A stretch of 21,043 nt of DNA, taken from the IMG/VR virus record IMGVR_UViG_3300048121_000282, positions 1 through 21,043 of that record; one strand, written 5' to 3'. Below are positions 1,768 to 20,759 of the stretch, piece after piece. The translations under genes were made by a program, and so were the position numbers. The notes beneath the pieces are model-generated. The model was given only the letters and a program-made list of their open reading frames with translations, was not told where the DNA came from and did not search any database. The DNA comes from a virus. The number at the start of each line of letters is the position of its first letter. Within the stretch, counting starts at the first letter, position 1.

Positions 1768-3305
1768 TGGCTGATAATCTAGCCTCCTTTAAGGTCTTCT
1801 GCCAAGGCGGTCTAAACACCAGTCGTGATGTGCTATCACAGGGTGAGACACAGCCTGGTTCAGCTATCTCGTTGATTAACTACGAGCCTGCTGTTACTGG
1901 TGGTTATCGCAAGATGAGTGGCTACAGTAATGACTATGGTACTGTACCAGGTTCTGGTAATGTATTAGGTGTCTGTGTAGCTAATGGTGTGAATGACGGT
2001 ATTCTCGCCGCACGATATGATACTGGAAGTACTGACTATCTGTACTACTGGAATACGTCTACCTCTGCTTGGGTAACTATTACTACTCCAGCTTCTGTTG
2101 ATGTTTCCACTTATCCCAAGGTACGCTTCTCTCGTTACAACTGGGGTACATCTAAAGTAGTTATTACTGATGGTGTAAATCCTGCTGCAACATACGATGG
2201 CACAACTTACACTCAGATTACTAGCACCAATGCGCCCAGCGCACCTAAAGTATCTCATATATTTAAGAACCACCTATTCTTAGCGGGTGATGCTACTGAG
2301 TCTACTAACCTGTGGTTTTCTGCGCCTTACAATGAGACGGACTTTGATCCTGCAGACGGTTCAGGTGTCGTTAACGTAGGCTTCCCTATTGTCGCAATCA
2401 AGTCCTTTCGTGATGCACTATATGTTTTTGGATCTAACAATATCCGCAAGCTTGTAGGCAATAACATAGCAGACTTTGTACTTGAAGAAGTTACAGATGA
2501 CTTGGGTTGTTTAGCTACAGACAGCGTTATTGAAATTGGTGGTGATTTACTATTTCTATCTCAAGATGGCTTGCGTCCTGTTACTGGTACTGATAAGATA
2601 GGTGACGTAAATCTTGAAACAGTATCTAAGGATATTCAGTCTGTCTTTACTGATGTGGTATTTGATGTAGACTTAGATAAGCTGAACGCTGTAGTTATCA
2701 GACAGAAGACACAGTTTCGATACTTCCTTGGTGCGGCTGATGGTCAGGGCATCATTGGTGGCTTTAGACAGACACCTAACGGCTTGCAGTTTGAGTACGG
2801 TCAAATGCTTGGTGTCTTTACTACCTGTGCTACTAGCGGTTACATTGGTCAGAACGAGTTTGTAATACATGGTGATAGCAACGGTAAAGTACACCGACAA
2901 GAGCAAGGCAATAGCTTTGACGGAGATGACATCTTTAGTGTATTCCAGACGCCTTTCTTTCACATGCAAGACCCAGAGCAACGCAAGGTATTCTACACTG
3001 TAGCTACATACTTGCGTTCTGAGGGTGACAATGAACTTATCATGTCTGCTCTTTACGACTACGAAGACGTAGACACTTTGCGTCCTACAAACTTCACACT
3101 AACAACACAGGGCGCAGCTGCATACTATAACGAAGCCTTGTATAACAGCACAGCAATCTTTGACGGTAACCCTGCCCCTGTACGGCGCACTAACATTTCA
3201 GGTTCAGGTATGTCAGCATCATTTAAATACGTAACCAATGACACTAACGCCTCTCACAGTATCCAAGGCATCGTGGTGACATTCGGAGTAGGAGACAGGT
3301 TATAA
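1767..3305 (+). CDS. Tail nozzle / DNA-stabilisation beta-propeller protein (P22 gp10 / T7 gp12-type)
   Basis: This 512-residue protein is almost entirely beta-strand, with repeated blade-like units: 'HIFKNHLFLAGDATESTNLW' (about 164-183), 'SFRDALYVFGSNNIRKLVG' (about 213-231) and 'GGDLLFLSQDGLRPV' (about 257-271). The 'LWFSAPYNETDFD' segment is of the kind seen in podovirus tail nozzle proteins, where a value is reported per blade. P22 gp10 is about 470 residues and T7 gp12 about 790, so this is nearer the P22 type. It starts on the last base of the adaptor stop (TAATG) with no strong ribosome binding site of its own, so it probably depends on coupling. It would form the tube extension that closes the tail after DNA packaging and bind the fibre made by the next gene. 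The fold call is fairly safe. The precise homology group is not known from sequence reading alone. Confidence 0.68.
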   Translation: MADNLASFKVFCQGGLNTSRDVLSQGETQPGSAISLINYEPAVTGGYRKMSGYSNDYGTVPGSGNVLGVCVANGVNDGILAARYDTGSTDYLYYWNTSTSAWVTITTPASVDVSTYPKVRFSRYNWGTSKVVITDGVNPAATYDGTTYTQITSTNAPSAPKVSHIFKNHLFLAGDATESTNLWFSAPYNETDFDPADGSGVVNVGFPIVAIKSFRDALYVFGSNNIRKLVGNNIADFVLEEVTDDLGCLATDSVIEIGGDLLFLSQDGLRPVTGTDKIGDVNLETVSKDIQSVFTDVVFDVDLDKLNAVVIRQKTQFRYFLGAADGQGIIGGFRQTPNGLQFEYGQMLGVFTTCATSGYIGQNEFVIHGDSNGKVHRQEQGNSFDGDDIFSVFQTPFFHMQDPEQRKVFYTVATYLRSEGDNELIMSALYDYEDVDTLRPTNFTLTTQGAAAYYNEALYNSTAIFDGNPAPVRRTNISGSGMSASFKYVTNDTNASHSIQGIVVTFGVGDRL

Positions 3306-3306
3306 C

Positions 3307-6108
3307 ATGGCAGGTTACACTAGACAGTCGGTAGCTGACATTATCGCAAATGCGGTTATTAAAGCTGCACCAGTTAACGCAGAATATAACGCTATTCGAG
3401 ATGCCTTCGCTTTCTCTGGTGGACACAAGCATGACGGCAGTTCAACAGAAGGTGCTTATGTACCTCTGATTGCAGACGTAGACGCTCTTAACAAGGTAGT
3501 TGTAGATACAGCTAACAATCGTATCAGCTTCTACAGTGAAGTAAGTGGTGCAGCTGTTGAGCAAGTACGCATTCAAGATGGTGCTATTGTTCCTGTAACT
3601 GATGATGATGTAGACCTTGGTGCTGCAGGTGCTGAGTTCAAAGACTTGTACATTGATGGTGTAGGTTATATTGATACCCTTACCGTACACGAAAACGCTA
3701 CTATTGCAGGTACGCTGGGTGTTACAGGTGTTATAACCGCTACTGGCGGTGTTGTAGGTGATGTAACAGGTGATCTCACAGGCAATGTAACGGGTGACTT
3801 AACAGGGGATGTTACTTCTTCTGGTACTTCTACCTTTGCTACTGTAGACACTACAGGTAACACCTCTATCGGTGGCACATTTGCTGTAACAGGTACGTCC
3901 ACCTTCACGGGTGCTATCTCTGCTGGTAGCCTTACTACAACAGGTAACTCAACACATGCTACTGTAGACATTAACGGTGGTGCGATTGATGGCACAGTCA
4001 TTGGTGCTTCTACTGCTGCTGCAGGTACATTCACTACAGTAACGACTACAGGCCAGGCTACCCTTGCAAGTGCTGACATTAATGGTGGTACTATTGACGG
4101 TTCAGTTATTGGTGGTACTACTGCACAAGCTATCACAGGCACAACGATTACAGCTAACACAGGCTTTACTGGTGCGCTTACAGGTAATGTCACGGGTAAC
4201 GTAACAGGTAACCTTACAGGCGATGTAACTGGTGATGTAACAGGTGACCTGACAGGTAATGTTACAGCTTCTACAGGTACAACAACTCTGAATGACCTTG
4301 TAGTTAACGGCACTGTAGACTTTACAAGCACAGCACTGCTTAACGTCAGTGATCCTACTGCACCACAACATGCGGCTACGAAGAGCTATGTAGATACTGA
4401 AGTAGCTAACCTTGTTGACTCTGCTCCTGCTGCACTAGATACACTTAACGAACTAGCTGCTGCGCTGGGCGATGATGCAGACTTTAGTAATACTGTAACT
4501 ACTAGCATTGCTGCCAAGCTACCTCTAGCAGGAGGCACTATGACTGGTGCTATTGCTATGGGTACCTCTAAGATCACAGGCTTGGGTGACCCTACTGCAG
4601 CACAGGATGCAGCTACAAAAGCGTATGTAGACACTGCAGATGCAACTAAGTTGAACTTGTCTGGTGGCACTATGACTGGTGCTATCGACATGGGTGCTAA
4701 CAAGGTCACTACGACTTACACGCCTACAGACAACGCAGACCTTACTACTAAGACATACGTGGATGGCATTCTTGGCTCCGCTACTGCTGCGGCGGATAGT
4801 GCTGCTGCTGCGGCTACATCTGAGACTAATGCTGCAACAAGTGAAACTAACGCAGCTAACTCAGCAAGTGCTGCTGCAGCAAGCTATGACGACTTTGATG
4901 ATCGCTGGTTGGGCGCTAAAGCTTCTGCACCTACAGTAGACAATGACGGTGATGCACTTGTAACAGGTGCAGTGTACTTCAACACGACAAATGACAGCTT
5001 GTATATCTGGACGGGTTCAGCTTGGTCTGCTGCAGTGTTCGACACTAATGACGCTCTGTTCGGCGCTAACAACCTGAGTGACGTAGCTAGCGCTGCTACT
5101 TCTCGTACTAACCTTGGGCTGGGTACTGCTGCGACTACAGCTTCAACTGATTATGCTACGGCGGCACAGGGTACAACAGCGGATGCTGCTTTGCCTAAAT
5201 CTGGCGGCACCATGACGGGGAATTTAGCTATTGCGTCTGCTTCTGGTTTCACAAATATTGAAATTGGTGGCCCCTCTGGTGCATATATTGACCTAAAGTC
5301 GCCATTCAGTGATGACTACGATGCTCGGATCATTACCACAGGCAGTGGGCTGCAAATTACTACGAGTGGTGATAATGCTGTTGATATACAACACAACGGC
5401 AGCACCAAAATCGCCACAAGAGCCACAGGCATCGACGTAACGGGCAACGCCACTTTTGGCGACAACGACAAAGCCATCTTCGGCGCTGGGTCTGACCTAC
5501 AGATTTATCATGATGGCAGTAACAGTGTAATCGCTGACACGGGAACAGGTGCTTTAATCACTTACGCTAGTGATTTTATTATACAGCAAAATGGCTCCAA
5601 TGAACGTATGGCTGACTTTGCTCAAAATGGTGCGGTTAGGTTATATCACGATGGTGCAGTAAAAACCACCACAACAGCCACAGGCGTATCAGTCACAGGC
5701 GACATCGCCGTCACAGGCACAGTAGATGGTCGTGACATTGCAACAAACATCCCTGCGTCACTCGGCACGGCAGGTCAGGTTCTAACGGTTAACGCAGGCG
5801 CAACGGCTGGCGAGTGGGCAGATGCTGGTGGAGGTGGTGGTCTTGAGTACCTCACAGGTAGTACAACTCTAGTTGCTGGAGGGCAGTACTTAGTAAGCAT
5901 TAGTGCTGCTACTACTTTAACTCTACCTGCTTCACCTTCGGCAGGTGATACTGTTCGTATTGTTGCGGCTGAAGGTAATGACTCAAACATACTTACCGTT
6001 GCTCGTAACGGTTCAACTATTCAATCTTTATCAGAAGACATGGCAGTGGATATCTTGGGTATTGACTTTATCTTGTGGTACAACGGAACAACATGGAGCT
6101 TAATCTAA
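3307..6108 (+). CDS. Tail fibre protein with marine-phage-type repeats
   Basis: This 933-residue, Thr/Ala/Gly/Asp-rich protein is built of modules. The N-terminal part (1-55, with 'GGHKHDGSSTEGAYVP') probably attaches to the virion. Two blocks of four-residue TG(N/D)(V/L) repeats lie at 151-170 and 289-320. Three 'GGTMTG' units start at residues 409, 453 and 633 with interleaved 'AATKAYVD'-type segments. An Ala-rich coiled-coil-like region precedes 'YDDFDDRWLGAK' near 526. Two 'YHDG' units follow at about 734 and 780, and the protein ends in a strand-rich tip. These elements are typical of trimeric phage fibres that bind surface glycans. It follows the nozzle gene by one base. Residues about 632-837 use markedly more GCC, ACC and ATC codons than the rest, suggesting an exchanged segment. 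No chaperone domain or hydrolase motif was recognised. Confidence 0.85.
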   Translation: MAGYTRQSVADIIANAVIKAAPVNAEYNAIRDAFAFSGGHKHDGSSTEGAYVPLIADVDALNKVVVDTANNRISFYSEVSGAAVEQVRIQDGAIVPVTDDDVDLGAAGAEFKDLYIDGVGYIDTLTVHENATIAGTLGVTGVITATGGVVGDVTGDLTGNVTGDLTGDVTSSGTSTFATVDTTGNTSIGGTFAVTGTSTFTGAISAGSLTTTGNSTHATVDINGGAIDGTVIGASTAAAGTFTTVTTTGQATLASADINGGTIDGSVIGGTTAQAITGTTITANTGFTGALTGNVTGNVTGNLTGDVTGDVTGDLTGNVTASTGTTTLNDLVVNGTVDFTSTALLNVSDPTAPQHAATKSYVDTEVANLVDSAPAALDTLNELAAALGDDADFSNTVTTSIAAKLPLAGGTMTGAIAMGTSKITGLGDPTAAQDAATKAYVDTADATKLNLSGGTMTGAIDMGANKVTTTYTPTDNADLTTKTYVDGILGSATAAADSAAAAATSETNAATSETNAANSASAAAASYDDFDDRWLGAKASAPTVDNDGDALVTGAVYFNTTNDSLYIWTGSAWSAAVFDTNDALFGANNLSDVASAATSRTNLGLGTAATTASTDYATAAQGTTADAALPKSGGTMTGNLAIASASGFTNIEIGGPSGAYIDLKSPFSDDYDARIITTGSGLQITTSGDNAVDIQHNGSTKIATRATGIDVTGNATFGDNDKAIFGAGSDLQIYHDGSNSVIADTGTGALITYASDFIIQQNGSNERMADFAQNGAVRLYHDGAVKTTTTATGVSVTGDIAVTGTVDGRDIATNIPASLGTAGQVLTVNAGATAGEWADAGGGGGLEYLTGSTTLVAGGQYLVSISAATTLTLPASPSAGDTVRIVAAEGNDSNILTVARNGSTIQSLSEDMAVDILGIDFILWYNGTTWSLI
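3757..3816 (+). repeat. 12-bp tandem repeat in fibre gene, block 1 (5 units)
   Basis: Five in-frame 12-bp units encode GDVT, GDLT, GNVT, GDLT and GDVT (fibre residues 151-170). The protein repeat is tighter than the DNA repeat, because synonymous codons differ between units, so it is maintained by selection on the protein rather than by very recent slippage. Confidence 0.9.
4171..4266 (+). repeat. 12-bp tandem repeat in fibre gene, block 2 (8 units)
   Basis: Eight in-frame 12-bp units encode GALT, GNVT, GNVT, GNLT, GDVT, GDVT, GDLT and GNVT (fibre residues 289-320). The block repeats the motif of the one 355 bp upstream, so the two could recombine and change the length of the shaft. A regular beta-helical or collagen-like shaft segment is the likely structure. 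Confidence 0.9.
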
Positions 6109-7053
6109 ATGGCTAACATCTCTTTATTCAAAACACCTACCCAACCAGAATTTGGCCCTCGTGACATCTTTGGTAGAGGTAGAGCACAAACATTCTTTAG
6201 TAATGGTACCTTTACTGTGCCTGATAGTGTGTCTTCTATCCGTGTTACTGTACATGGTGCTGGAGGTGATGGAAACTACTCCCAAAGTTATACATACGCT
6301 GGCGCCGGTCCAGGCGGCGGCGGTGGTGGATGTGCTATAAAAACAATCTCAACTAGTCCAAATACTTCTTATTCGGTAACTGTCGGGACTTCTTCGGCTG
6401 CATCTTCTTCTTTTGGTACAGAATGCAGTGCTACTGGTGGGGGTAATGCAACTACCACTGCAAAAGGTACTGGCGGTACTGGGACAGGAGGCGATACGAA
6501 CTTAACAGGCGGGAATGGTGGCAATAGAGCACAGAGCAGCTCCTCAGGCGGCGCTGGTGGCGGAGCAGGATACGGAGGCGGGAACGGAGCCAATTCCATA
6601 TCAAACAATGACTACGGCCAAGGCGGCGGCGGCATTGGCGGCAATGGTTACGGCAGCTTCGGTGCAGGCTCCGCAACTAGAGAGGCTAACTTTTGGGGGT
6701 CTATCACAACTACCACTTTGAACTTTACACCACTGCACATTTTAGACCTTTATCATCTTACTGGCGGTAAAACTCCTGCAAATGACTACATAACTGGCAC
6801 AGTTAATACAGCTGGCCCTGGTTCAGGAGGTGGAGGTGGAAGCTGCTCCGTTTTTAACAATGATATAGATAGAATACAAGGGTCCGACGGAGGTGTATGT
6901 GGCGGCGGGGGCGGTGCTCCAGCTGGAGATCAAGGCAATCACACAAAGCCTACGTCACAAGCTGGCAACGGCGGATTAGGTGGAGGCGGAGGTGGAGGTG
7001 GCTTCTCGAGCCACGGTAGCGGCGGTCAAGGTTTCGTCATTGTAGAATGGTAA
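6109..7053 (+). CDS. Glycine-rich tail adhesin-like protein
   Basis: This 314-residue protein starts immediately after the fibre stop. An N-terminal beta unit, 'SNGTFTVPDSVSSIRVTVHG' (about 31-50), leads into long glycine-rich loops with many GGG and GGGGGG runs. It ends in 'GGQGFVIVEW', the closing strand typical of the phage glycine-rich domain. Related glycine-rich tips (for example gp38 of phage S16) fold as packed polyglycine helices and carry the receptor-binding loops. The non-glycine insert around residues 190-230 ('FWGSITTTTLNFTPLHILDL') would be a candidate exposed or host-contacting segment. Its position after the fibre suggests it caps or decorates the fibre. An appendage protein of unknown role is the alternative. 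Confidence 0.72.
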   Translation: MANISLFKTPTQPEFGPRDIFGRGRAQTFFSNGTFTVPDSVSSIRVTVHGAGGDGNYSQSYTYAGAGPGGGGGGCAIKTISTSPNTSYSVTVGTSSAASSSFGTECSATGGGNATTTAKGTGGTGTGGDTNLTGGNGGNRAQSSSSGGAGGGAGYGGGNGANSISNNDYGQGGGGIGGNGYGSFGAGSATREANFWGSITTTTLNFTPLHILDLYHLTGGKTPANDYITGTVNTAGPGSGGGGGSCSVFNNDIDRIQGSDGGVCGGGGGAPAGDQGNHTKPTSQAGNGGLGGGGGGGGFSSHGSGGQGFVIVEW

Positions 7054-7311: not shown

Positions 7312-7857
7312 ATGAAACACTTAATCCTAATACCCGCTCTGGCATTGGCTGCTTGCTCGACTAAGAATGATGTAGCAATGAACAGAGATTATCAGTTATC
7401 TGTGGCTGAAAGTGAGAAAGCTCGAATGTATGCTATCAGAGAGATTGCAAGTCAGGGTGAAACGGGTGCGGTTGCAGCAGCTATGATGATGCAGAACCAA
7501 GGGAATAAATCTCATGCGGCACCTCGTAGTAGCGGTGATAATGCTTTGGCATGGGCGCAAGTCCTTGTCCCTGCTACAGTTCAATCCGCTGGAATTGCTG
7601 TAAATGGTTTGGTTGCAAGAACGCAGTCGAATAATAACAAGGACGTTGCAATCGTTAATAGCGATAACACCACAGCAGTTGCGGTAGATACAAACTCAAC
7701 TATGGCGACGATTGCTGAGGTTACTATTGTCAATCCAGAAGTTGTCAATCCAGAAGTTGTTAACCCAGAAGTTGTTAACCCAGAAGTCGTAATAAGTACA
7801 AACACATCCACAAACACGGTGACTTGTGTAACGGACGATACATATACCTGTGAGTAA
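7312..7857 (+). CDS. Phage-encoded lipoprotein with VNPEV repeats
   Basis: This 181-residue protein has a short charged N-terminus, a hydrophobic core and a lipobox 'LAAC' with the acylated Cys at residue 15. Ser at +2 favours the outer membrane. An AGAGGA ribosome binding site at 7295-7300 precedes the ATG. Residues 25-60 are helical and charged, with 'AVAAAMMMQNQGN' following. The C-terminal half is Asn/Thr/Val-rich and carries four tandem VNPEV units (140-159). Two Cys near the end (within 'TVTCVTDDTYTCE') could form a disulphide in the periplasm. A lipoprotein in a late operon next to a membrane protein and near lysis genes could be an outer-membrane spanin, a superinfection-exclusion factor, or a virion component. 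None is shown by sequence. Confidence 0.7.
   Translation: MKHLILIPALALAACSTKNDVAMNRDYQLSVAESEKARMYAIREIASQGETGAVAAAMMMQNQGNKSHAAPRSSGDNALAWAQVLVPATVQSAGIAVNGLVARTQSNNNKDVAIVNSDNTTAVAVDTNSTMATIAEVTIVNPEVVNPEVVNPEVVNPEVVISTNTSTNTVTCVTDDTYTCE
7729..7788 (+). repeat. 15-bp tandem repeat x4 in lipoprotein gene
   Basis: Four 15-bp units at 7729, 7744, 7759 and 7774 each encode VNPEV. Units 1-2 share GTCAAT while units 3-4 share GTTAAC, so the array looks like an expansion of two related pairs. It is in frame, so unit number could vary without breaking the gene. Confidence 0.95.
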
Positions 7858-7937: not shown

Positions 7938-8204
7938 ATGAGTAATACTATGAGTGAAGTAAAACTCTCACATGACGAACTAGAAGAGATGCTGGATCGG
8001 GCAGCAAGGCGTGGGGCTAAAGAGGCTCTACGCTCTATTGGCTTACTTGATGACTCCGCTCAGAGAGATATTACTGAGATGCGTAGCTTGTTAGAGGCTT
8101 GGCGTGATACCCGCAAGTCTATCTGGACAACAGCAATAAAATTAACCACTGTCGCCGTACTGACGTTTATCGCAGGCGCAGTATATATGACAATGGATAA
8201 GTAA
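7938..8204 (+). CDS. Small C-terminal-anchored membrane protein (DUF6127-like)
   Basis: This 88-residue protein has a helical, charged N-terminal domain ('LSHDELEEMLDRAARRGAKE', 'ALRSIGLLD', 'DITEMRSLLEAWRDTRKSIW') followed by one membrane segment (about 64-84) and a 4-residue tail. The pattern of ARRGAKEALRSIGL, then a DI..MR.LL.AWR helix, then one membrane span matches what I recall of DUF6127 proteins of alphaproteobacteria and their phages; this was not searched. ATG 7938 or the in-frame ATG 7950 (MSEV) could be the start, and neither has a clear ribosome binding site. The topology (soluble head inside, C-terminal anchor) does not match an inner-membrane spanin. It may assist lysis or be a holin-like or envelope-remodelling protein. 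It lies after an 80-bp gap from the lipoprotein gene. Confidence 0.65.
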   Translation: MSNTMSEVKLSHDELEEMLDRAARRGAKEALRSIGLLDDSAQRDITEMRSLLEAWRDTRKSIWTTAIKLTTVAVLTFIAGAVYMTMDK

Positions 8205-8215
8205 AGGCGTAAGAC

Positions 8216-11200
8216 ATGGCATTTGAATCACGAATAAAACAAAGAGAAAAAAAGAACCCTATTACAGGTCAAACTCAGTATGCACGTCAAGTATCTATGT
8301 ATGACCCTGACCTGAAGGCGAGTGTTTCTTTAGGTACAACAAGCTGGCACACATCTAAGAAAGCCGCTGCTGACGAATCTGTTGTAATGGTAAGTAAGTT
8401 TAAGTCTTCTGAGCAGGGTGGTACGCCTCGTACTGCTCGTATGAGTACGGGTGAGAAGGTTAAAGTCGTAGAAGACCCTAGAGTAGCACTAAAAGCGCAG
8501 CAGTCTGCGCTACGCCAGTCGTTGCAACAATACGAAGAAGTAGGTGCAAGTAAAAAGTTAGGTAGAGGTAAAGTTGCTGTAACAAAAGAGCAGTACGATA
8601 AGGCAAAGGCTGACTACGATAAGTATATAGGTGGTCAAGCTACACATTTTACCAGAACTTCAGGTGGACAGATTTTTGATGTCATCACTAACAAACCTGC
8701 AGATATGAATAAGTACTACGCTGCTCAAAACTGGAATAATGTACAAGATTCTCTAGTAGCGGGTAGTGAAGCGCATGAAGCTATAAAGTCTCAATATGCT
8801 GACGTTACAGCAAAACTTAAAAACGCAGGTGACTGGACGCCTCCTCAAGTAGAGCAACCTACCACTACTACTACTTCTCGTTCTACCTCTACAGGTTCTC
8901 CTCAAGCAGGTTCTACAGGTGCGCCTTCACCTACTGCAGGTGAGACGTATGGCGGCACAGGTGCTTTACAAACAACGCAGACTACACCTAGTGTAACACC
9001 TGCAGGTACAACTACAGACTACGTACCTCTTGCAGCTACTCCAGTAGACCCTACTACAGGTGTCTCTACCGTACCTACACAAACAGGTAGCCTATCTGCA
9101 CTACCTACAGATGTAACCTATGCTACACGTCCTGCTGGTACACCTGGCTATGTGCAAGAGTCTCTGCTTGCTCCATCTATCTCAGGTCAAGGCGAAAGCA
9201 CATATGACCAGTGGATGCAACAAACACAACAGGCTGAGGAGCAGCAAGGCGGTTACGTTGTAACTATGCCTGATGGTACAGAGCAGACTGTTGCATACGG
9301 TCAAGCCATTCCTGTAGGTGCTATTATTAAAGAGTATGTAACTGGTGCTGCTAAGGGTGGCCTGATGCGCAAGGGTTACTCTGATGGTGGACTTGCTGTG
9401 AAGCAGAACGAAGACGGTACAGCTTCTATTACATTTACTGACAAGACTTTTAATTATAGGACTGTACCGCCTACTGCTACTTTTAGTACGCAGGAAGAAG
9501 CAGATACCTTTCTTAATACCTACAATCAAACATCTGGAGATGTACGTAAAAGAGAGCTTGTAAATAAAAATGCACAAGCGGCGTATGAAAAAAGAGCGCA
9601 GCAAAGTAGAGATGCTAGTGCAGCTAACAGAGATGCAGCAGAGGCGGCTAAAAGTAAAGTAATTACAGGGCGTGATATATTCTACCCTGATAAAAAGATT
9701 GGTAAGCCCCGCCCTGATGAGTTTGCTCAAGCTGCAGGTATATCTTCTACTGAAGCATCTAATGTATTAAGATCCGATATGGGTGACATAGACGCACGTA
9801 ACTGGTCTGCTATTATGGCTAGTGATAACCCTTACAAAGCTGCTCAAGATGCAAAACAAGCTCAGTTAGATTCTTTTGATCCTCGTCATTTTAGGGATCT
9901 TGTTCAGAAATATAAAGGCACTAACGAATTAGGCGATGCTGCTGCGGGTTCTAAGTACTTACTAAGCTTAGACGAAAAAACTTTTAATTGGTTAAAAGAT
10001 AAAGACGTATCAAGTCCTGCAGAACTTCGTAGTGCTGAAGTGCTTACAGCACTAAACCCTGAGACAGGGCAGATGGATACTGCAGTATATTATGAAAATC
10101 CTCAGTCTACAAAACCCTACATTGAACGCACCACTTTCCGTCTACAAGCATTCCCTTGGGAAAGAGGGGCAGAAGGGCCTATAGACCCTGCTTCCTTTGA
10201 GAACTTACCTAATTACCCCGGCGAGTTTAAGCAAGTAATGGGTCGCCCTGTAACGCCACAAGACTTCGAGGACTACGGTTATACGGACCCTCAGGGAGCC
10301 TACGATAGAAATGTTACTCCTGAAGTAACTATACCTGCTACTACAGTTACACCTGTAGAACAACAAACAAATGAGGCTTTAGGTGTGAGTCAACCTACCT
10401 ATAACCAACAACCTACCTATAACCAACAACCTAGCGTGTATGATCAGTTTATGCAGAGTACTTATACACCGCCTACATACGATAATACAGGTACTTTTAA
10501 TGTCCCTTCTCAGACAGCGGGATTTTCTGCTATTCCTCAGTACAACCCGCAATTTATGCAGGGTCAATCTGGTTACAACGTACCGCAACTTACGGGTGCG
10601 GCTAAAGGAGGCGTTATGCGTAAAGGCTACGCTGCAGGTGGTATGCCTGAAGACCCTATGCTGGAAGCTAAGTATCGTATCGCTAGTATGAATGGCTACA
10701 ATGGTCCTAAGACTAATGCTGCTCTTAACTCTTTCGCTAACTCAAACGAAGGTATGAAGCGTAAGTTTAACGCTATCGGTACTATGATGAACCGTGGCGG
10801 CTTAGCTATGGCCCAAGGTGGCACTGTACCTAATCAGGCAATGATTGCAGGTCAGCCTCACCGTCTTGCTTACGTTAACCCTCAAGAAGAGGCTATGATG
10901 AAAGCTGCAGGAGGTGCAGGTGTACCCTCTTATGGTGGAATACCAGCTTACTTTAGTATAGGGCCAGGTACAACGGTAGGTCAGGTTGCTACAGACCCTG
11001 CTACGGGAACAGTCTACACTTGGAACGGCACTTCTTGGGATATTCAAAGCTCCTCAGGTGAGACTTTGGGTCAAACAGAAGGCATGAACTTGCCTGGTTC
11101 TGATGTAACTTCCCCCACTACTATAGGGCTAACTAAAGAACAGCTGTCTACAAAGATGCAGGATGTTGTATCACGAACCATGACGCCTCAACAAGCAGCA

Positions 11201-12766
11201 GTTTCGTTCATTCAACCACAAGCAGAGGACTTTGTTCCCCTTGATGCAGGGCAGGCTGCTCCTGTAGCACCTTTTGCAGAGGCAGCTAAAGTACAGACTA
11301 CTGCACAATCTGCCCTCCCTGCTTATATGCAGTACGCACAGATGCAGCCTGTTACTGCAGCGGATCAAGTACAACAAGCTACTGCTGCTACTCAAGCTGC
11401 ACAGGGTCAAGTATCACAGGGCGCTCAGGTACAAGCAGCCCAGCAGCAGCAAACCTCTGTATCAGGCATGGAAGCTGCTCAGGGTACAGCTACTATGGTT
11501 AATGCCCCTGCAGCACGTGAGATCCAAGCTGGAGAGCTTATCTCTGGTGTAGCGGATGCAGAGAAAGCGGCACTCTTCAATGAGCAGATCCAAGCTGCTA
11601 CAGCTACACCCTCTAAGCAAGCTACTGTAGCAGGCCAGCTAGAGGGTCTTATGCAGCAGTTCGAGGGTGGTGAAACACCTGCATGGGCTGCAGGCTCTAT
11701 GCGTACAGCTATGGCTACTCTTTCTGCTCGTGGCTTAGGTGCATCTAGCATGGCTGGTCAGGCTGTTATCCAAGCTACAATGGAAGCTGCACTTCCTATC
11801 GCTCAGATGGATGCACAGGTACAGGCACAGTTTGAAGGTCAGAACCTGTCTAATCGCCAACAACGTGCTATGCTTGCTGCACAGCAACGTGCTACTTTCC
11901 TTGGCATGGAGTTTGACCAAGACTTCCAATCACGTGTACAGAACTCAGCACGTATTGGTGATATAGCTAACATGAACTTTACTTCTGAGCAGAACATTGC
12001 TTTGGAGAACTCTCGTGCAGCTAACACGATGAACCTGAGTAATCTCAATAACCGTCAGGCTATGGTTATGGCTGAGGCTGCTGCACTGTCACAACTTGAT
12101 ACTCAGAACCTTAACAATCGTCAACAAGCTGCTGTACAGAATGCTCAGAACTTCATGCAGATGGACATGGCTAACTTGTCTAATGAGCAGCAGACTGCTA
12201 TGTTCGCTTCTCAGCAGAACATTCAAGCTCTGTTCACAGATCAGGCTGCAGAGAATGCTGCTGCACAGTTTAACGCTTCTAGTGAGAATCAGACTAATCA
12301 GTTCTTTGCTAACTTGACCAGTCAGACATCACAGTTCAACGCATCTCAGCAGAACGCTATGGATCAATTTAACGTGAATAGTGTTAATGCTCTACGTGAG
12401 TTTAACTCTGAAATACAACAACAGCGTGACTTGTTTAACGCACAGAATGGTCTTGTGATAGCACAGTCTAATGCTCAGTGGCGTCAGAACCTAGCCACAC
12501 TAAACACAGCCGCACAGAACCAGAGTAACTCTGACTTTGCAAAGACTATAAATGCTTTGACTGCATCTAACATGGATCAGATATGGCAACGTGAGCGTGA
12601 CCTTATGAGCTTTGCATTTGCTGCCTCTGAGAGTTCTGCTGATCGTGCTACTAACATTGCTATCGCTAAACTCACTGCAGATGAACAAGCTAAGTTACAG
12701 GATAGCATTGGTAAAGGCAAACTATCTGCTATTGCATTTAATGCTGTACTAGGGAAGTGGTTATAA
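8216..12766 (+). CDS. Giant low-complexity virion-type protein, 1516 residues, function unknown
   Basis: This is the largest gene here, with AAAGG at 8204-8208 before the ATG. Residues 1-200 are charged and helical. A Thr/Ser/Pro/Gly linker follows (about 217-330). Then come two copies of TGAAKGG(L/V)MRKGY..GG at residues 376-392 and 793-809 and a divergent 'MMNRGGLAMAQGG' near 857. A short 'YTWNGTSWDI' beta motif lies near 936. The C-terminal 450 residues are Ala/Gln/Asn-rich and predicted helical, with repeats of NLxNRQQxA (about 1210-1450). There is no enzymatic motif or long hydrophobic stretch. It lies between the envelope/lysis-type genes and the transglycosylase and internal-protein genes, which suggests an internal or ejected virion protein. 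A tape-measure or scaffold-like role is the alternative. Marine phage proteins with KGG and RQQ repeats exist, to my memory without known function. Confidence 0.6.
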   Translation: MAFESRIKQREKKNPITGQTQYARQVSMYDPDLKASVSLGTTSWHTSKKAAADESVVMVSKFKSSEQGGTPRTARMSTGEKVKVVEDPRVALKAQQSALRQSLQQYEEVGASKKLGRGKVAVTKEQYDKAKADYDKYIGGQATHFTRTSGGQIFDVITNKPADMNKYYAAQNWNNVQDSLVAGSEAHEAIKSQYADVTAKLKNAGDWTPPQVEQPTTTTTSRSTSTGSPQAGSTGAPSPTAGETYGGTGALQTTQTTPSVTPAGTTTDYVPLAATPVDPTTGVSTVPTQTGSLSALPTDVTYATRPAGTPGYVQESLLAPSISGQGESTYDQWMQQTQQAEEQQGGYVVTMPDGTEQTVAYGQAIPVGAIIKEYVTGAAKGGLMRKGYSDGGLAVKQNEDGTASITFTDKTFNYRTVPPTATFSTQEEADTFLNTYNQTSGDVRKRELVNKNAQAAYEKRAQQSRDASAANRDAAEAAKSKVITGRDIFYPDKKIGKPRPDEFAQAAGISSTEASNVLRSDMGDIDARNWSAIMASDNPYKAAQDAKQAQLDSFDPRHFRDLVQKYKGTNELGDAAAGSKYLLSLDEKTFNWLKDKDVSSPAELRSAEVLTALNPETGQMDTAVYYENPQSTKPYIERTTFRLQAFPWERGAEGPIDPASFENLPNYPGEFKQVMGRPVTPQDFEDYGYTDPQGAYDRNVTPEVTIPATTVTPVEQQTNEALGVSQPTYNQQPTYNQQPSVYDQFMQSTYTPPTYDNTGTFNVPSQTAGFSAIPQYNPQFMQGQSGYNVPQLTGAAKGGVMRKGYAAGGMPEDPMLEAKYRIASMNGYNGPKTNAALNSFANSNEGMKRKFNAIGTMMNRGGLAMAQGGTVPNQAMIAGQPHRLAYVNPQEEAMMKAAGGAGVPSYGGIPAYFSIGPGTTVGQVATDPATGTVYTWNGTSWDIQSSSGETLGQTEGMNLPGSDVTSPTTIGLTKEQLSTKMQDVVSRTMTPQQAAVSFIQPQAEDFVPLDAGQAAPVAPFAEAAKVQTTAQSALPAYMQYAQMQPVTAADQVQQATAATQAAQGQVSQGAQVQAAQQQQTSVSGMEAAQGTATMVNAPAAREIQAGELISGVADAEKAALFNEQIQAATATPSKQATVAGQLEGLMQQFEGGETPAWAAGSMRTAMATLSARGLGASSMAGQAVIQATMEAALPIAQMDAQVQAQFEGQNLSNRQQRAMLAAQQRATFLGMEFDQDFQSRVQNSARIGDIANMNFTSEQNIALENSRAANTMNLSNLNNRQAMVMAEAAALSQLDTQNLNNRQQAAVQNAQNFMQMDMANLSNEQQTAMFASQQNIQALFTDQAAENAAAQFNASSENQTNQFFANLTSQTSQFNASQQNAMDQFNVNSVNALREFNSEIQQQRDLFNAQNGLVIAQSNAQWRQNLATLNTAAQNQSNSDFAKTINALTASNMDQIWQRERDLMSFAFAASESSADRATNIAIAKLTADEQAKLQDSIGKGKLSAIAFNAVLGKWL
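9341..10642 (+). repeat. Two separated KGG-MRKGY motif copies (9341-9391 and 10592-10642)
   Basis: Two 51-bp segments, 1.25 kb apart, encode TGAAKGGLMRKGYSDGG and TGAAKGGVMRKGYAAGG in the 1516-residue protein. Identity is high in protein (14 of 17) but only moderate in DNA. A shorter variant (NRGGLAMAQGG) follows near 10790. They act as boundary marks between low-complexity sections. Confidence 0.85.
10391..10432 (+). repeat. 18-bp tandem repeat encoding QPTYNQ
   Basis: Two identical 18-bp units (10391-10408 and 10409-10426) are followed by a 6-bp partial copy, encoding QPTYNQ twice and QP. Identity is perfect at the DNA level, pointing to a recent duplication in the linker of the 1516-residue protein. 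Confidence 0.95.
11843..12580 (+). repeat. Degenerate Gln/Asn-rich helical repeat region
   Basis: This covers residues about 1210-1455 of the 1516-residue protein. Related segments such as 'NLSNRQQRAMLAAQQ', 'NLNNRQAMVMAEAA', 'NLNNRQQAAVQNAQ' and 'NLSNEQQTAMFASQQ' are spaced about 28-57 residues apart, followed by 'QFNASSENQTNQFFANL' and 'QFNASQQNAMDQFNVNS' units. It is probably a long helical or coiled-coil rod. Confidence 0.75.
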
Positions 12767-12770
12767 TAAA

Positions 12771-13664
12771 ATGAATGTATTAGATAAAAGTATAGTAGAA
12801 GCAATCCGTAGTACATACGCTGCGCCTACACCAGAAAGCATTTCCTCTAAGAGTGCTGAGCGTCAGGGTGTGATGGCTAGAACGCAGAGCAGGGTAAGTG
12901 AAGCCTTGAAAGATACAGCAAGTGATGCTATGGCTTCTATACAGACTCTTGTAGGTAAAACTATGGATGCTCGTACAGATAAAGATGAATCTATGGAAGA
13001 GTTAGCTGAACAGTCAGCTAAGGAAAACGCTATTTATCGTGATAGTTTAGGTATTACAGAATCATTAAAGGAGGGTGGCGGTGCTACATCAGAGGATGTT
13101 TTGCTTAGTATTAATACTCAGTCTTCTGGTCTCATGTCAGCCACTAAAGATGAAGAGGTTTCTGCACCGATGACTGCAGAAGCTAAAGAGATTGTAAAAA
13201 CTGAAATAGGTATCTCTTCCTCTATGTGGGACGCATACAGAGAGGAGATCTCTGCTATTGAGTCTGGTGGAAAAGAAAACCCCTACGCCGCTAAAGGCGG
13301 GGCTAATAAACACTACGATGGTATGTATCAACTAGGTAAAGTAGCTAAGCAAGACGCTGGGCAGCTTCTAGGTATTACTTTAGGTCACACAGCACAGGAA
13401 CGAGAGGCATACCGCAACGACCCTGAACTGCAGGAGAAAGCTTTTGCTGCTTATACTGCTAAAAACCACGACTACCTTATGAATAAATCAGAGAAGTACA
13501 AAATGCTACCTTTAGAAGAGAAGCTTGCTGTACTGGGTTATGCCCACAATCAAGGTTGGAGTGGTGCTGATAAATGGCTAGAGACAGGAGAGACAGGTGA
13601 GGATGCGTTTGGTACTAAAGGTACTAAATACTATGACGCTCTTATTGATAGGTTAAACCCCTAA
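12771..13664 (+). CDS. Lytic transglycosylase-like protein with long N-terminal extension
   Basis: In this 297-residue protein, residues 1-150 are polar, low in structure and of unknown role. Residues 155-297 form an SLT/lysozyme-like domain. It has the candidate catalytic Glu164 in 'AIESGG', then 'GGANKHYDGMYQLGKVAK' (177-194), which resembles the Gly-Met-Gln strand of SLT enzymes with the usual 'GLMQ' changed to 'GMYQLG', and 'LGYAHNQGWSGADKWL' (255-270). It would cleave the glycan strands of peptidoglycan. There is no signal peptide, so access to the wall needs a holin or delivery in the virion. It starts 4 bases after the 1516-residue gene and its stop overlaps the start of the holin-like gene by one base (TAATG). 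It could be the endolysin or a virion-borne wall-penetrating enzyme like that in T7 gp16. The long polar N-terminal part fits the second a little better. Confidence 0.7.
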   Translation: MNVLDKSIVEAIRSTYAAPTPESISSKSAERQGVMARTQSRVSEALKDTASDAMASIQTLVGKTMDARTDKDESMEELAEQSAKENAIYRDSLGITESLKEGGGATSEDVLLSINTQSSGLMSATKDEEVSAPMTAEAKEIVKTEIGISSSMWDAYREEISAIESGGKENPYAAKGGANKHYDGMYQLGKVAKQDAGQLLGITLGHTAQEREAYRNDPELQEKAFAAYTAKNHDYLMNKSEKYKMLPLEEKLAVLGYAHNQGWSGADKWLETGETGEDAFGTKGTKYYDALIDRLNP

Positions 13665-14107
13665 TGTTTGGACTCCCTTTAGAACTCATCACAATGCTCT
13701 TCTCTACCCTGCTAGGCGGTGTAATGTCTATATGGGGGCAGAATATAAAAGCTAAACAAGCTCAGCAAGCCATGCTTATGCAACGTGCTGAGTTTAACCG
13801 TAGTGCTGTAGCAGATGCACGTGATGCTGGTAAGACAGACAAACACTTTGCTTGGACACGTAGGCTCATTGCTTTATCTGCTGTATTTTCTATTATAGTC
13901 TTGCCTAAGTTAGTTGCTGTGTGGTATCCTATGGTAGACGTGTATGTAGGCTACACAGAAGTGCAGGGCGGATTTATGAACTGGTTGTTTGGTCCTGCAG
14001 AGGCTATACAATGGAAGTCAGCTACAGGCTTTGTTATCACACCCCTCGACACACACATCGTATCAGCTATTGTAGGTCTCTACTTTGGCGCAGGCTTCAC
14101 TAAGTAA
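13664..14107 (+). CDS. Three-transmembrane holin-like protein
   Basis: This 147-residue protein has membrane segments at about 4-24 (starting 'LPLELITMLFSTLLGG'), 67-88 ('RLIALSAVFSIIVLPKLVAV') and 128-144 ('DTHIVSAIVGLYFGAGF'). A charged helix (28-62) separates the first two. The architecture resembles the 3-TM holin family known from the gene transfer agent of Rhodobacter, though I recognise the layout rather than a signature. It is coupled by TAATG to the transglycosylase gene, the usual partner of a holin. It would form holes in the inner membrane to release the lytic enzyme. If the transglycosylase is virion-borne, this protein could be a channel or membrane accessory. No dual start motif was seen at the N-terminus. 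Confidence 0.6.
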   Translation: MFGLPLELITMLFSTLLGGVMSIWGQNIKAKQAQQAMLMQRAEFNRSAVADARDAGKTDKHFAWTRRLIALSAVFSIIVLPKLVAVWYPMVDVYVGYTEVQGGFMNWLFGPAEAIQWKSATGFVITPLDTHIVSAIVGLYFGAGFTK

Positions 14108-14118: not shown

Positions 14119-14700
14119 ATGGAACTACTAAAAGCTCCTATTCCCGGTCAGTCACTTACAGACGAACCTAAGAATTACCCATGGGAAAACCCTCCAGAGA
14201 TTACAGATCCTGAGGAAGCCATTGCAATGCACATGAGTAAGTTCAATGATCCAGAAGTCATAGACAATATGCTAGACTTGCTGGACATTGGCTTTCCTGT
14301 ACGTGCTTTGGCTGAGAGTATTCTTACTGCTAGTGTAGCCGCAGGCTGGCACAGCATAGATGTAAGCCTTCTTGTTGCACCCTTTATGCACGAGCATATT
14401 ATCTCTATGGCTAATGAGGCAGGTGTCTCTTATGTAGAGGGCTTTGAGAAGGATGAAGAGGCAGCACAAGAGAAAGAGCGTCAGTTCATCTTAGCTAAGG
14501 CTACTCAGATGCTCAAGGATACACCTGAGGGTGATAGAGATGCAGGTTATGAAATGGCTATGGAGTCACTAGGTATCCTAGACAAACCAGAGGCTGAGTA
14601 CCAGACTATGCAAGAAGAGGCTCCTGAAATGGATACCTCTATAATGGAAACAGAAGAAGAGCCGCAGCAAATGCAACGTGGCCTTATGGCACGAGGATAG
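14119..14700 (+). CDS. Acidic helical protein, function unknown
   Basis: This 193-residue protein has a ribosome binding site (AAGG at 14107-14110) 8 bases before the ATG. The N-terminal 'LLKAPIPGQSLTDEPKNYPW' is a proline-containing segment I have seen in proteins of marine tailed phages, including T4-like cyanophages, where no function is assigned. The middle (about 45-110) is hydrophobic-helical without a membrane-length span. The C-terminal third is strongly acidic (many Glu, 'EEEPQQMQ'). It follows the holin-like gene by 11 bases and ends just before the ribosome binding site of the next gene. It may be a structural or chaperone protein for the internal core proteins downstream, which is only a guess from place and acidity. 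Confidence 0.55.
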   Translation: MELLKAPIPGQSLTDEPKNYPWENPPEITDPEEAIAMHMSKFNDPEVIDNMLDLLDIGFPVRALAESILTASVAAGWHSIDVSLLVAPFMHEHIISMANEAGVSYVEGFEKDEEAAQEKERQFILAKATQMLKDTPEGDRDAGYEMAMESLGILDKPEAEYQTMQEEAPEMDTSIMETEEEPQQMQRGLMARG

Positions 14701-14707
14701 TAACATG
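14693..14707 (+). promoter_or_regulatory. Ribosome binding site deciding the start at 14705
   Basis: GAGG at 14693-14696 lies 8 bases before ATG 14705. An upstream in-frame GTG at 14678 would overlap the preceding gene by 23 bases and has no purine run at the right distance, so the ATG is preferred. The Shine-Dalgarno sequence lies inside the last codons of the upstream gene. Confidence 0.7.
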
Positions 14708-16423
14708 GCAGCAGGTTTTTGGGCAGGTTTTGGAGAACAGTTTAGTCAAGATCTTGGAAAACGTCAGGATTCGCTAGATGCACTTATTAAAGAGAACTTA
14801 GCTAACGCACGTATTGCTAAACGTGATTATGCTAAGCGTAAGAGTTTAGCAGATACAATACTTGATACTACACAGGCTATTCAAAACAAGTATGGATTGA
14901 AGGACGAGCAAGCCATAGCTCTTGCTGAGGCTTATGGTACTGACTTACCTGGGCTACAGGTTAAGCTTGACCAAACAGACACTCAAGTTAGAAGTACGGG
15001 TGGTGTAGGGTTAGGCGCAGAGCAAGTCATGTCTTACGTTAATATGACAAACGAGCTTGCACCGCTTAATGGTATGACAAAGTTGCAGGCTATTGAGAGA
15101 CTGATGGGTCTAAATGCTACAGAGCTTGCAAAGGAAGCAGATCCTAAATCAGAGGGTGCTCAGACACGTAGTTTTATTCGTGCTGCATTGGCTTATGACC
15201 CCCAGCTACAGGCTGCTGAGAAGATGCAAAACATCAAGGGACCAGGCGGTATGTCATACGCACAGTTACTTGAAATGCAAGAGGCTGGTTTTGCACCTGA
15301 GGATGTAGTAGGTGGTGTGACACGTAGTGGTGGCTTGGCGTATGACTACACCGCATCTACACCTAAGCAAACACGTAGTGAGTATGCTCGTCTGCTATCC
15401 ATTAATGTGTTTGATGGCTCTGATCTAACGGATCAAGTACAATACAATGACTACTCATCCAGTTCAGACACAGATAAGGCCTCACTTAAAGCATCTGTAT
15501 TAGGAGCAGGTACAGCACTAGCACGTTTAGAGAAGGACATTGTTCTGTCTAACCTTGGTAAAGACCTGTCCCTAAATGCTTTCCGTAAGGCTATTCTTGA
15601 TGACATCTATGATCGTGTAAATTCACCAGAAGAATTAGATACTCTAAAAGAGAGTGTTGCTAATGGTACAGCACTTAAGATTGTACAGCGTACAGGTGGC
15701 AAGCTGACAGATGATGACATTGATGCTATTATTTCAGGGGCAGACGTTGAGGAAGGTGCTACTACTGATGTTGATATGTCAGGTACACCAAGCTTTCGTG
15801 ATAGAAGTGATGAAATAGTTAGCGCAACGCCAAAAGCAGAACCTAAGGCTGACATACCCGCTGTTCTAACAGAAGAACTACGTAAGGCGTGGCTATCAAT
15901 GGACCCAGAGAACAGGCCAAACCTTGAGGGTGTTACCGATCCTGAAATAGCCCGTATGTTATTGACTGTATCAGAAGATGAACAGGAACCAGAGTCAGTA
16001 AGCGAAACAGGTGCAGCTGCTACAGCGCAGCTTAATATAGATAACGCAGAGAAGAGAGCCGCATCTGTTTCAGACATAACTTACTCAGATTGGAAGAAAC
16101 TATCTCGACAGGAGCGTAAGGATAAAGGCTATCCTGTACGCAATATAGATGGTGTATATACTGATCCTGACGCATGGAAGCCAGAACCAGAAGACACCTC
16201 AGGAGAGTCCAAACCCACACTTAATACTACATCTTTTGTAGATAAGTATGGAAAGGAGCTTGGTGCGTTTATCAACGAGAACGAGACAGATGTTACTGAT
16301 AAAGAAGAAATAAAGAGTACGCTAGCTGCATGGTTTAGTGACAATGCTGGAAATCCAGAGATAAGAGGCTCAATGGACATGGACACGCTTACTGAGCTTG
16401 TGTACAATGCACTAAACCGATAA
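14705..16423 (+). CDS. Probable internal virion (ejection) protein, 572 residues
   Basis: It starts at ATG 14705 rather than GTG 14678, on ribosome-binding-site grounds. The N-terminal 120 residues are helical and Lys/Ala-rich ('ALIKENLANARIAKRDYAKR'). The middle (about 150-330) is mixed. The C-terminal third has long acidic, Pro/Thr/Ser-rich linkers ('VSETGAAATAQLNIDNAEKR') and ends in a small helical unit. It has no signal peptide, membrane segment or enzymatic motif. T7 and related podoviruses have a run of large internal proteins (gp14, gp15, gp16) at the end of the structural cluster, and this gene with the 1125-residue gene and perhaps the 1516-residue one fills that place. Assignment is by size, helicity and order, not by sequence match. 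Confidence 0.5.
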   Translation: MAAGFWAGFGEQFSQDLGKRQDSLDALIKENLANARIAKRDYAKRKSLADTILDTTQAIQNKYGLKDEQAIALAEAYGTDLPGLQVKLDQTDTQVRSTGGVGLGAEQVMSYVNMTNELAPLNGMTKLQAIERLMGLNATELAKEADPKSEGAQTRSFIRAALAYDPQLQAAEKMQNIKGPGGMSYAQLLEMQEAGFAPEDVVGGVTRSGGLAYDYTASTPKQTRSEYARLLSINVFDGSDLTDQVQYNDYSSSSDTDKASLKASVLGAGTALARLEKDIVLSNLGKDLSLNAFRKAILDDIYDRVNSPEELDTLKESVANGTALKIVQRTGGKLTDDDIDAIISGADVEEGATTDVDMSGTPSFRDRSDEIVSATPKAEPKADIPAVLTEELRKAWLSMDPENRPNLEGVTDPEIARMLLTVSEDEQEPESVSETGAAATAQLNIDNAEKRAASVSDITYSDWKKLSRQERKDKGYPVRNIDGVYTDPDAWKPEPEDTSGESKPTLNTTSFVDKYGKELGAFINENETDVTDKEEIKSTLAAWFSDNAGNPEIRGSMDMDTLTELVYNALNR

Positions 16424-16432: not shown

Positions 16433-19400
16433 ATGTCAGATAAGTTCTCTTATTATACACCTGAAAACATGCAAGATAAGAAGCTGTCAGATCTTAAGTC
16501 TGACCCTGCTTTCCTTCAAGATGCTGTAACCTTTCTTAAGTCTGGGCGTAAAGGCTATACACCAGATGACATAAAGGGTATGTCTGCTAATGATGTAGTA
16601 TCTGAGGTATTAGAGCATTTCCGTTACCAAACTACCAATGAAGTCACGGTAGCTAAAGACATCTACTTTATGAATGACGATTCTGTTGATGTAAAGCATC
16701 GTGAGTCTTTTGGTAGGCTTATGTTTGCGTTTGATAACGCTAAGGGTGAGGGTCTCTTTGATCGTGGTGGTGAGAAGATTGGTGACTACCTTGGTGGTGT
16801 TGCCTCTGCGCCCTCCACATATGCTTCGGCTGTTGCGGGTGTAGGTAGTGCTGGCGTAGGCGCTGCTGCTATTCAAGCCACTAAGCAGGCATCTCTTCTT
16901 GCATTACGTACAGCAGGTAAGCAAGCCATTAAGCGTAGTCTAGTTGCTGGTATGGCAGATGGCGCTGTTGGTGCGTCTTTTGAATATGGTAACCAGAAGA
17001 TTCGTGAAGCTGCAGCTGACGATATGGATATGGACTACAAGGTAGACAAGGGTGCAGTCGCTCTTAGCGGTGCGCTGGGCTTTGCTGTAGGTGCTGGTAC
17101 ATATGGTGCTGGTGCTGCCTTACAACACCGTGGTGCTAAGAAGTTAGCTGATACCATTGATGAGGGGCGTGTTGCTAACGCTGATCGTGTAAAGGAAGCG
17201 GCTGCTCTTGCAGCAGTAAAGACTAAAGAAGCGGTTAAAGACCCTAAGAACCTAGCTAAGATGGAAGCTGCTACAAAGAAAGTATTGCAGTCTATTGACC
17301 CAGACCTAGTTAAAGAGGGTGACAATGTTAAGCGTTACCTTCTTAGTAATGATATGCCTGAGGGTGTCATGGGTGGTCTTAGCCAAGAGACAGTACAACG
17401 CTTGAGTGCAGCCTCTTATGAATTAGCAGAGCGTATTGGTGCAGATCTTAGCGATCCTAATATCCGTATTACGGAAGTACTGGCTAATAACATAAGCAAG
17501 AACAAAGTAGCGTTCATGGATGTAGCACAGGAGTTTGGGCTTAGTCCTAGACAACTCTCTGCAGCCTACGCATCTGAGGTTTCAACAGCTGCTAAGATAC
17601 TTGCTACCCAAAGTGCTATTTCTAAGAAGGCTTCAAGGCAGCAGTTGGAAGCTTTGTCTAAGAAGGTAGACGATCTATACGAGGCTGGTATGGCTCCTGC
17701 TAAGGCAGAAGATCTACAAGCAATCACATCTGCTACACGTGATACTCAGAATGTTATCTGGAAGAAGTTTAAGGATGTTGAAAACGCTAGACGTATGTTT
17801 ATGACATCACAGCCTGCTACTACCATGCGTAACAACATCTTCTCTGTAGCCATGACAGGCATAGACATTATAGATCAACTTAACACTGCAGTACTAAAGA
17901 CTGTAACTAAAGGCCGCAAAGAGGGTATGACTACTCTCAACGGAGCCTTTGACAATCTTAAATACCTTACACGTGATAACTACGTAGCAGACTCTCTTGT
18001 TACGATGATTGGGTCTGACTCACCTCAAAAGTTACAGCGAGTGTTCTTTGATGCTGCACTCGTAGAGGCTAACGTAGCTAAGGATACAAAGCTTGCTAAG
18101 ATGGGTGCTGCAGTCAACACACTAAACACCATGTCAGACTTTGTAGTAAAACGTGCTATAATTGCTGGTAGCATTGACCGTCAACTTAAAAAGATGGGCG
18201 ATGAAAAACTAGGCACTAGCGTCATGGATATGCTAAAGAAGGGTACAGTAAGTGAGTTGCCTGATGATGTACTGGACGCTGCATTAGATGAATCACTAGC
18301 CTTTACTTTCCAGCGTAGGTTTGGTGGTAAAGACGCCAGTGATATGAATAAGTTTGCTGCAGATACTATTAAGTACATTCACAACTACGGACTTACTACT
18401 ATAATACCTTTCCCTCGTTATCTGGCATCACAGGCTAAGTTTATTTCTGACTATACAGGATTAACTATACTGCGCCGTGGTATAAAGGACACTACTACAG
18501 AAGAGTCTGCTAAGTTTATGACAGGCGCTTTGATGTTTGGTGGCCTGTACATGACACAGAAAGAGAACATAGCTAAAGGCTTGGAGTGGTTTGAAGTAGA
18601 GGGTGAAGACAGTAAGGTGTATGATGGACAGGCAGCATTCGGCCCCCTATCAGCACAGGTATACGCATCTAATTACATTGCACGTCTTATGGAGGGTGCT
18701 CCAGTTAAGCCTAATGCAGAGGCTCTAAAGGATCTCACTAAGATACTAGGTGCAACAGAGTTTAGACCTGGTACAGGCCTTGCAGATAACCTAGTTAAAG
18801 CACTAGAGGCAGGTAATACTGAGCCTTTGCTTAACCAGTTAGGCGACTACTTTGGTTCATTCACTTACCCTGCTGCAGTAGTTAAAGACTTTTACGGTCA
18901 GCTAGACCCTCGTTCATCCTACTTACCTGAGACACGAAATGCGTCTGTTTCTACTGTAGAGTTTATGGGCTATGATATTCCTATGTCTGCTATTCAACGT
19001 GTAACACGCCACCTGCCAGACTTTGATAGTGCTAAGATCTCTAAACAACTAGATGACTTGACAGGCATTAGTATTGCACCTGATACATTAGCTAAGTTTC
19101 TAGAGTTTGCTAATACCTCTACCCGTACACACTACCAAACGCAGTACAATAAGGATGCTGACGGTAACAACATGCGTCAGGATGCTATTAGGTTTGACAT
19201 CTTTGGTGATGGGCCTATCAAGATGCAAGACCCTCTAGTAAAACAGATCACAGGTTTTGTAGGTAGACCTCCTAAGAACGCACTGCAACGTGAAATGTCT
19301 CGCTTACAGATTGACCCCTTTAAGCTGTACAATCCTTATCGTGAACAGAACGTAGCTCTTGAGATATTCACACAGCAAAAGATGCAGGGCAACCTAGCTA

Positions 19401-19849: not shown

Positions 19850-20051
19850 AATGTACTCCATGTTTCTTAGCACAGTGGCTTGCCCATAGTATTGCAGCTA
19901 CTAGGTGCTCTACGGCTTTGTCCCTTTCATCACTCTGCCACAGATTATTCTTGATGTGTTGCTCCAACGCTTCAGCGTGTTGAGATAACTCATCGTAGAA
20001 CTTAATGCGTGTACCTTCTATGTGTGCTTTCGCTTCTTGTTCTAGTTTCAC
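19848..20051 (-). CDS. Small helical protein, possibly Acb2-like (weak)
   Basis: The start is best placed at GTG 20051, giving 67 residues. It overlaps the phoH stop by four bases (GTGA), and a purine run (AAGGAAGG, 20062-20055) lies 3-6 bases upstream. An upstream GTG at 20081 would add 10 residues inside phoH. The protein is two or three helices: 'VKLEQEAKAHIEGTRIKFYD', 'LSQHAEALEQHIKNNL' and 'DERDKAVEHLVAAILWASHC'. The last helix has the AxxxxLxxAIxWA spacing I recall from Acb2/Tad1-type proteins that trap cyclic nucleotide signals of bacterial defences. That resemblance is from memory and short, so I treat it as a hypothesis. It may instead be an unrelated early regulator. Confidence 0.6.
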   Translation of the reverse strand: MKLEQEAKAHIEGTRIKFYDELSQHAEALEQHIKNNLWQSDERDKAVEHLVAAILWASHCAKKHGVH

Positions 20052-20758: not shown

Positions 20759-20759
20759 T

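Follow-up and report, generated by a model that had tools for sequence, protein, structure and literature searches.

An 11-residue-quantized repeat protein at the head of a candidate DNA-ejection cassette in HMO-2011-type podophages

Ejection proteins of the T7 gp14/P22 gp7 type are about 180–240 aa long, and those resembling T7 gp14 have predicted membrane helices (PMC8954989). Repeats with an 11-residue period also occur in other phage proteins. In the phiX174 H pilot tube the hendecad part is Gln/Asn-rich and virtually Pro-free (PMC7354561), and a subset of tape-measure proteins has as its signature 11-residue repeats that vary in number and carry Phe/Trp markers (PMC3271669). Two proteins of cultured marine phages, HMO-2011 gp25 (YP_008320287; 706 aa) and CRP-2 gp49 (QBQ72525; 1014 aa), are of the same family and occupy the same cassette position as the protein described here; both are annotated as 'hypothetical protein'.

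The DNA that we analysed (the window) is an entire viral record of 21,043 bases, a 21 kb piece from the genome of an HMO-2011-type podophage. The protein in question, which we call X, has 1516 residues and is encoded on the plus strand at 8216–12766; Roseobacter phage CRP-2 is the closest cultured relative at this gene. In the conserved C-terminal domain window X is 88% identical to CRP-2 gp49 and 61% identical to HMO-2011 gp25, whereas neither protein resembles residues 1–215. The open reading frame is real, as a first-pass annotation made from the sequence had proposed. Its 1516 codons run without a break, from ~12 nt behind the preceding gene to 4 nt ahead of the following one, and GC content at codon position 3 is low along the whole gene (0.27–0.39), a coding-like pattern. 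Comparison of the C-terminal part with its relatives gave a dN/dS of about 0.1, indicating purifying selection.

X has relatives in 27 phage records, and viral contigs contain at least 549 stretches that match it. Annotated relatives are called 'hypothetical protein' throughout, apart from one machine-given name, 'huntingtin'. The 165 unique full-length members range from 459 to 1516 aa with a median of 696 aa, and only the C-terminal ~380 aa are common to them. Neither the whole of window X, searched against Pfam and PHROG, nor its segments, searched against Pfam, gave a match. Of this marine-phage protein, common but uncharacterised, no form longer than window X is known. The earlier statement that it has no recognised equivalent holds for T7 and P22 but not for marine phages, in which there are hundreds of relatives.

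The shared C-terminal domain consists of three conserved caps linked by two arrays of Ala/Gln/Asn repeats, of 22 and 11 residues. On the plus strand of the window it begins with an N-cap (residues 1140–1209; 11633–11842; GQL..PxWAxG..RGLxxSS..PIAxxDA), followed by rod 1 (residues 1210–1330; 11843–12205), a 121-aa array of 22-residue repeats of the form NLSNxQQxAvxNAQ... whose self-similarity reached z = 6.9 at lag 22. A middle cap (residues 1331–1368; 12206–12319) separates it from rod 2 (residues 1369–1411; 12320–12448), which is built of 11-residue FN repeats. The C-cap (residues 1412–1452; 12449–12571; QSNAQWRxxxxTxNTA) and a C-terminal tail (residues 1453–1516; 12572–12763) complete the protein. 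Three caps, two 11-quantized arrays and a 193-aa partner encoded downstream define the HMO-2011 gp25 family, and window X has all of these.

Rod lengths were determined as distances between the caps, which were located by profile HMMs in 191 usable X proteins with the window as reference. For both rods, the length differences from the window were exact multiples of 11 in 191/191 proteins. Rod 1 showed 13 distinct distances (34, 56, 78, 111, 122, 144, 188, 232, 342, 408, 452, 518 and 562), all 13 on an 11-residue grid and 12 on a 22-residue grid; the six distinct distances of rod 2 were likewise all on the 11-residue grid. Held-out relatives from bacterial assemblies conformed as well (7/7), one of them adding 298 to the distances seen. 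With 12 independent differences in length, the probability of such a fit by chance is about 3e-13. Modulo 11, the lengths of the N-terminus and of the C-tail in these proteins are evenly spread, so the steps are not an artefact, and because X proteins fall into 70 sequence clusters, the steps are not the property of a single lineage. The rod arrays of X change length solely in steps of 11 residues, mostly of 22. Rod length did not clearly follow the sizes of the genes that come next; the Spearman coefficients, calculated over non-independent sequences, were about −0.27 and 0.29. The longest rod seen, in an X protein at L229:5502–8798, is a 561-residue array of near-perfect 22-residue repeats.

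Phenylalanines of window X are also spaced by 11, at residues 1352, 1363, 1374, 1385, 1396 and 1407. A run of six at exactly this spacing was present in 116 of the 191 X proteins and in 0/862 other ORFs of at least 300 aa. X therefore combines Phe every 11 residues with a variable repeat number, the two elements of the published tape-measure signature (PMC3271669). Together with the quantized lengths, this likeness speaks for a tape-measure-like ruler, in which the arrays would gauge length during virion assembly (for instance that of an internal core or of an extended tail nozzle) and ejection would be unnecessary. We consider this reading unlikely. The run of six is one short of the strict seven-marker pattern (PMC3271669), and no match to a known tape-measure or scaffold family was found, despite a repeat pattern like the one of tape-measure proteins. 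Moreover, tape-measure proteins belong to long-tailed phages, whereas the cultured relatives of X are podophages and lack a long tail to measure, and the tail-tube genes of the window are podoviral only.

An AlphaFold2 model of X built from 45 sequences was all-helical with a mean pLDDT of 66, the N-cap being the best-modelled part (about 75–88). A PDB fold search with this moderately confident model found no match, and PDB sequence and fold searches for X and the tested cassette partners were negative; a viral structure library returned members of the family itself, such as a 460-aa CHOED protein. Among 773 unique 22-mers of rod 1, 92% have Ser/Thr/Asp/Asn at repeat position 3, as at a helix N-cap, 80% have Gln/Glu/Asp at position 6, and Gly is found chiefly at position 21. 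These positional preferences favour short helices of ~17 residues with turns between them, and rod 2 looks like a hendecad helix. The rods contain 28–33% Gln/Asn and virtually no Pro. In this composition, and only in this, X resembles the DNA-translocation protein H of phiX174 with its Gln/Asn-rich hendecad helices; H has a fixed length and comes from an unrelated ssDNA phage, and segregation of faces of the amide/guanidinium type is not significant in X. In helical-wheel tests of the rods neither a hydrophobic nor an amide face reached significance, so these tests do not demonstrate a tube lined with Gln/Asn, nor was a simple amphipathic hendecad tube supported. The earlier idea of a helical rod gains strength from the quantization of the repeats.

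The rest of window X is a variable N-terminal extension (residues 1–1139; 8216–11632, plus strand). It comprises a charged segment (residues 1–215; 8216–8860), a Thr/Pro/Ser/Gly-rich linker with 24% Thr (residues 216–345; 8861–9250), two KGG..GG motifs (residues 377–392, GAAKGGLMRKGYSDGG, 9344–9391; and residues 794–809, 10595–10642), a helix-like GYxGP module after the second of these (residues 817–843), an RGG..GG motif (residues 860–869; 10793–10822) and short beta-like stretches. Followed by the Ala/Gln/Asn-rich end, this is in outline the layout given in the first-pass annotation. Its description of the protein as mostly low complexity was overstated: 32% of 25-residue windows have an entropy below 3.2 bits, compared with 53% and 72% in the fibre genes and 2–17% in the remaining genes scored. 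KGG..GG motifs are strongly enriched in the family (61/165 X proteins versus 42/3166 other ORFs of the same loci). Residues 1–215 and 541–720 had no relative anywhere we searched. Where N-terminal segments did have relatives, these were only in other X proteins and in a different order, from which we conclude that the N-terminus is a mosaic. Comparison across marine phages, proposed earlier as a search for conserved ends, thus found one such end, the shared C-terminal domain; the first ~1,130 residues are hypervariable and fast-changing. The extension measures 129–1139 aa in the family, and because the length of window X stems mainly from it (1139 aa versus a median of 309 aa), the argument that so large a protein is costly and must be in the virion provides no evidence. 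The notable feature of X is the exact 11-residue quantization of its shared helical end, which the first-pass annotation did not contain; its large size is mostly N-terminal accretion.

Like the T7 gp14/P22 gp7 type (phrog_805, phrog_598), X leads a cassette with two large genes at its end and is helical and Ala/Gln/Asn-rich. In contrast to those proteins, which have about 200 aa and predicted membrane helices, X proteins have 459–1516 aa. Window X has no membrane-helix-like stretch (best 19-residue mean hydropathy 0.93), and just 1 of 184 C-tails of X relatives reached a 19-residue hydropathy of at least 1.6. Comparison of X with T7 gp14 and P22 gp7 by hhalign gave probabilities below 1%, and a PHROG scan was negative. 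X was rejected as a member of this family, as the tests of homology, size and membrane helices all failed. Apart from the Peptidase_S74 tail, the C-terminal domain also showed no homology to phiEco32 gp23/24 or to the abundant DB2_18-type ejection proteins. In profile comparisons with ejection proteins of T7, P22, phiEco32, 7-11, H6/1 and the DB2_18 type, the only match was to the S74 tail of some relatives. Weak hhalign matches were not counted as evidence because column-shuffled decoys of these compositionally biased alignments at times scored spuriously high probabilities.

The C-terminal tail of some X relatives is lengthened. The addition is either Peptidase_S74 or an end of the CWVAREVYG type; the latter, as found in HMO-2011, matched no other phage record. 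Pfam identified S74 in X of CRP-3 and CRP-738 and not in window X, and a loose motif was present in 17/165 X proteins. X of CRP-738 matched phrog_4287, which contains the phiEco32 and Salmonella 7-11 ejection proteins, with E = 2e-13 and over the S74 tail exclusively. Without this tail those ejection proteins did not match X, and the size order of Salmonella 7-11 gp20–gp24 is similar to that of the X cassette.

S74 is typical of tail fibres and the N-terminus of X is hypervariable, as might be expected of a trimeric external fibre or needle, that is, a helical coiled coil with S74 acting in some members as a trimerization chaperone and with a variable N- or C-terminus touching the host. This reading is quite improbable in our view. 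The window has separate fibre genes (3307–7053), window X and most of its relatives lack S74, and X is strictly coupled to the genes for the 193-, 581- and 1125-aa proteins. Peptidase_S74 also terminates the annotated ejection proteins 7-11 gp20 and H6/1 gp17, and elsewhere in their sequence some S74-bearing ejection-type proteins match DNA-ejection PHROGs. The S74 tails are therefore in keeping with an ejection role as well.

Upstream of X on the plus strand are a major head protein gene truncated at its 5′ end by the window end (3–971), two tail-tube-type genes (1042–3305), one matching the tail protein phrog_10775 and the other phrog_5107 with weaker matches to head closure Hc3 and internal virion protein, and the fibre genes. 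A 181-aa protein encoded at 7312–7857, for which there was no confident family match, has an N-terminus like that of a lipoprotein (MKHLILIPALALAACS) and contains a VVNPE tandem repeat. Directly upstream of X lies the gene for an 88-aa DUF6127 protein whose C-terminal part includes a hydrophobic stretch (7938–8204). X is followed, also on the plus strand, by genes for a 297-aa protein matching the endolysin PHROG phrog_5867 (12771–13664), a 147-aa holin-like protein with hydrophobic stretches that matches phrog_38283, of unknown function (13664–14107), the 193-aa partner (14119–14700; APIPGxSLT..YPWExPP), a rapidly diverging 581-aa protein for which no family match was found (14678–16423) and a 1125-aa protein (16433–19810). 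PhoH-like and endonuclease VII-like genes on the minus strand (20048–21041) mark the start of a converging non-structural module.

The cassette order was constant in 13 phages (12 named records and the window), always after the capsid, tail-tube and fibre genes: X, 0–3 small genes, a 164–193-aa protein, a 365–928-aa protein and an 817–1638-aa protein. A partner gene of ~190 aa was downstream of X in 162/162 loci with enough flank, and X and this partner occur in the identical set of 27 phage records. With its DUF6127, endolysin-like and holin-like neighbours, its disordered N-terminus and no virion evidence, X could also be read as a late, unpackaged assembly factor, such as a chaperone, core scaffold or lysis-cluster protein. 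We judge this improbable, since the lysis genes are missing in HMO-2011, where X directly adjoins the partner, and the size and conservation pattern of X are unusual for a chaperone.

In the 13 phages, X is upstream of genes in the positions of a gp15/gp20-type protein and of gp16, to which the 581- and 1125-aa proteins, respectively, were assigned by position and by the domains of homologues. A PDB fold search with a moderately confident model of the 1125-aa protein (pLDDT 62) found no match. An 'internal virion protein D' appears in the figure key of a paper on RCA phages (PMC6918029). The last cassette gene of HTVC104P has matches to Phage_lysozyme and 'internal virion lysozyme', and that of HTVC033P (L092:14967–19145) contains LPD38 and can be aligned with polyvalent proteins of the DarB-like and LPD5 kinds. 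DarB/LPD-type polyvalent proteins are a class injected with DNA, as established for the Dar proteins of P1. The alignment suggests that the HTVC033P protein may be anti-restriction cargo in an ejection cassette.

Tail-tube genes before X, a set of genes after it that does not vary, and a last gene whose homologues can carry lysozyme or DarB/LPD-type domains together suggest an ejection role for the X cassette. The first-pass annotation had considered X probably a virion component, perhaps an ejection protein or a DNA-passage rod. The cassette argues in favour of this, whereas homology and fold searches gave no match to a known ejection protein. We lean towards the view that HMO-2011-type phages have a podoviral DNA-ejection cassette whose first protein is X, and that X forms a rod, barrel or solenoid from its repeat arrays. 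Several copies would pack their helical arrays side by side, and the assembly would be kept inside the head, close to the portal. At infection X would leave before or with the DNA, alongside the 193-, 581- and 1125-aa proteins, and would lengthen the short tail across the cell envelope. Repeat number would fix the physical length of the element, which would act rather like a tape measure or pilot tube, and the mosaic N-terminus may be a host-adapted or cargo part. Packaging, ejection, oligomerization and length-setting by X are all inferred here, and we found no virion proteomics for any X relative in the open literature.

A bolder form of the ejection model is possible but doubtful. Here X would be a length-quantized helical tube or solenoid, ejected to span the envelope, with repeat number tuning its reach and the mosaic serving as a host-adaptive arm; such an evolvable 'telescopic tail' would constitute a class unrelated to T7 gp14/15/16. 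As the units are exactly 11 residues, 33 or 66 bp can be added or removed, which offers a direct experimental handle on whether podophages possess a molecular ruler or an extendable DNA conduit. X and its 193-aa partner also provide a marker for annotating hundreds of 'hypothetical' cassettes.

Relatives of the CRP-3 type encode a second protein, unrelated to X, of ~480 aa (L089:8892–10337; homologues in L183, L185–L193 and L195). It contains an acidic coil with up to five Phe residues exactly 11 residues apart.
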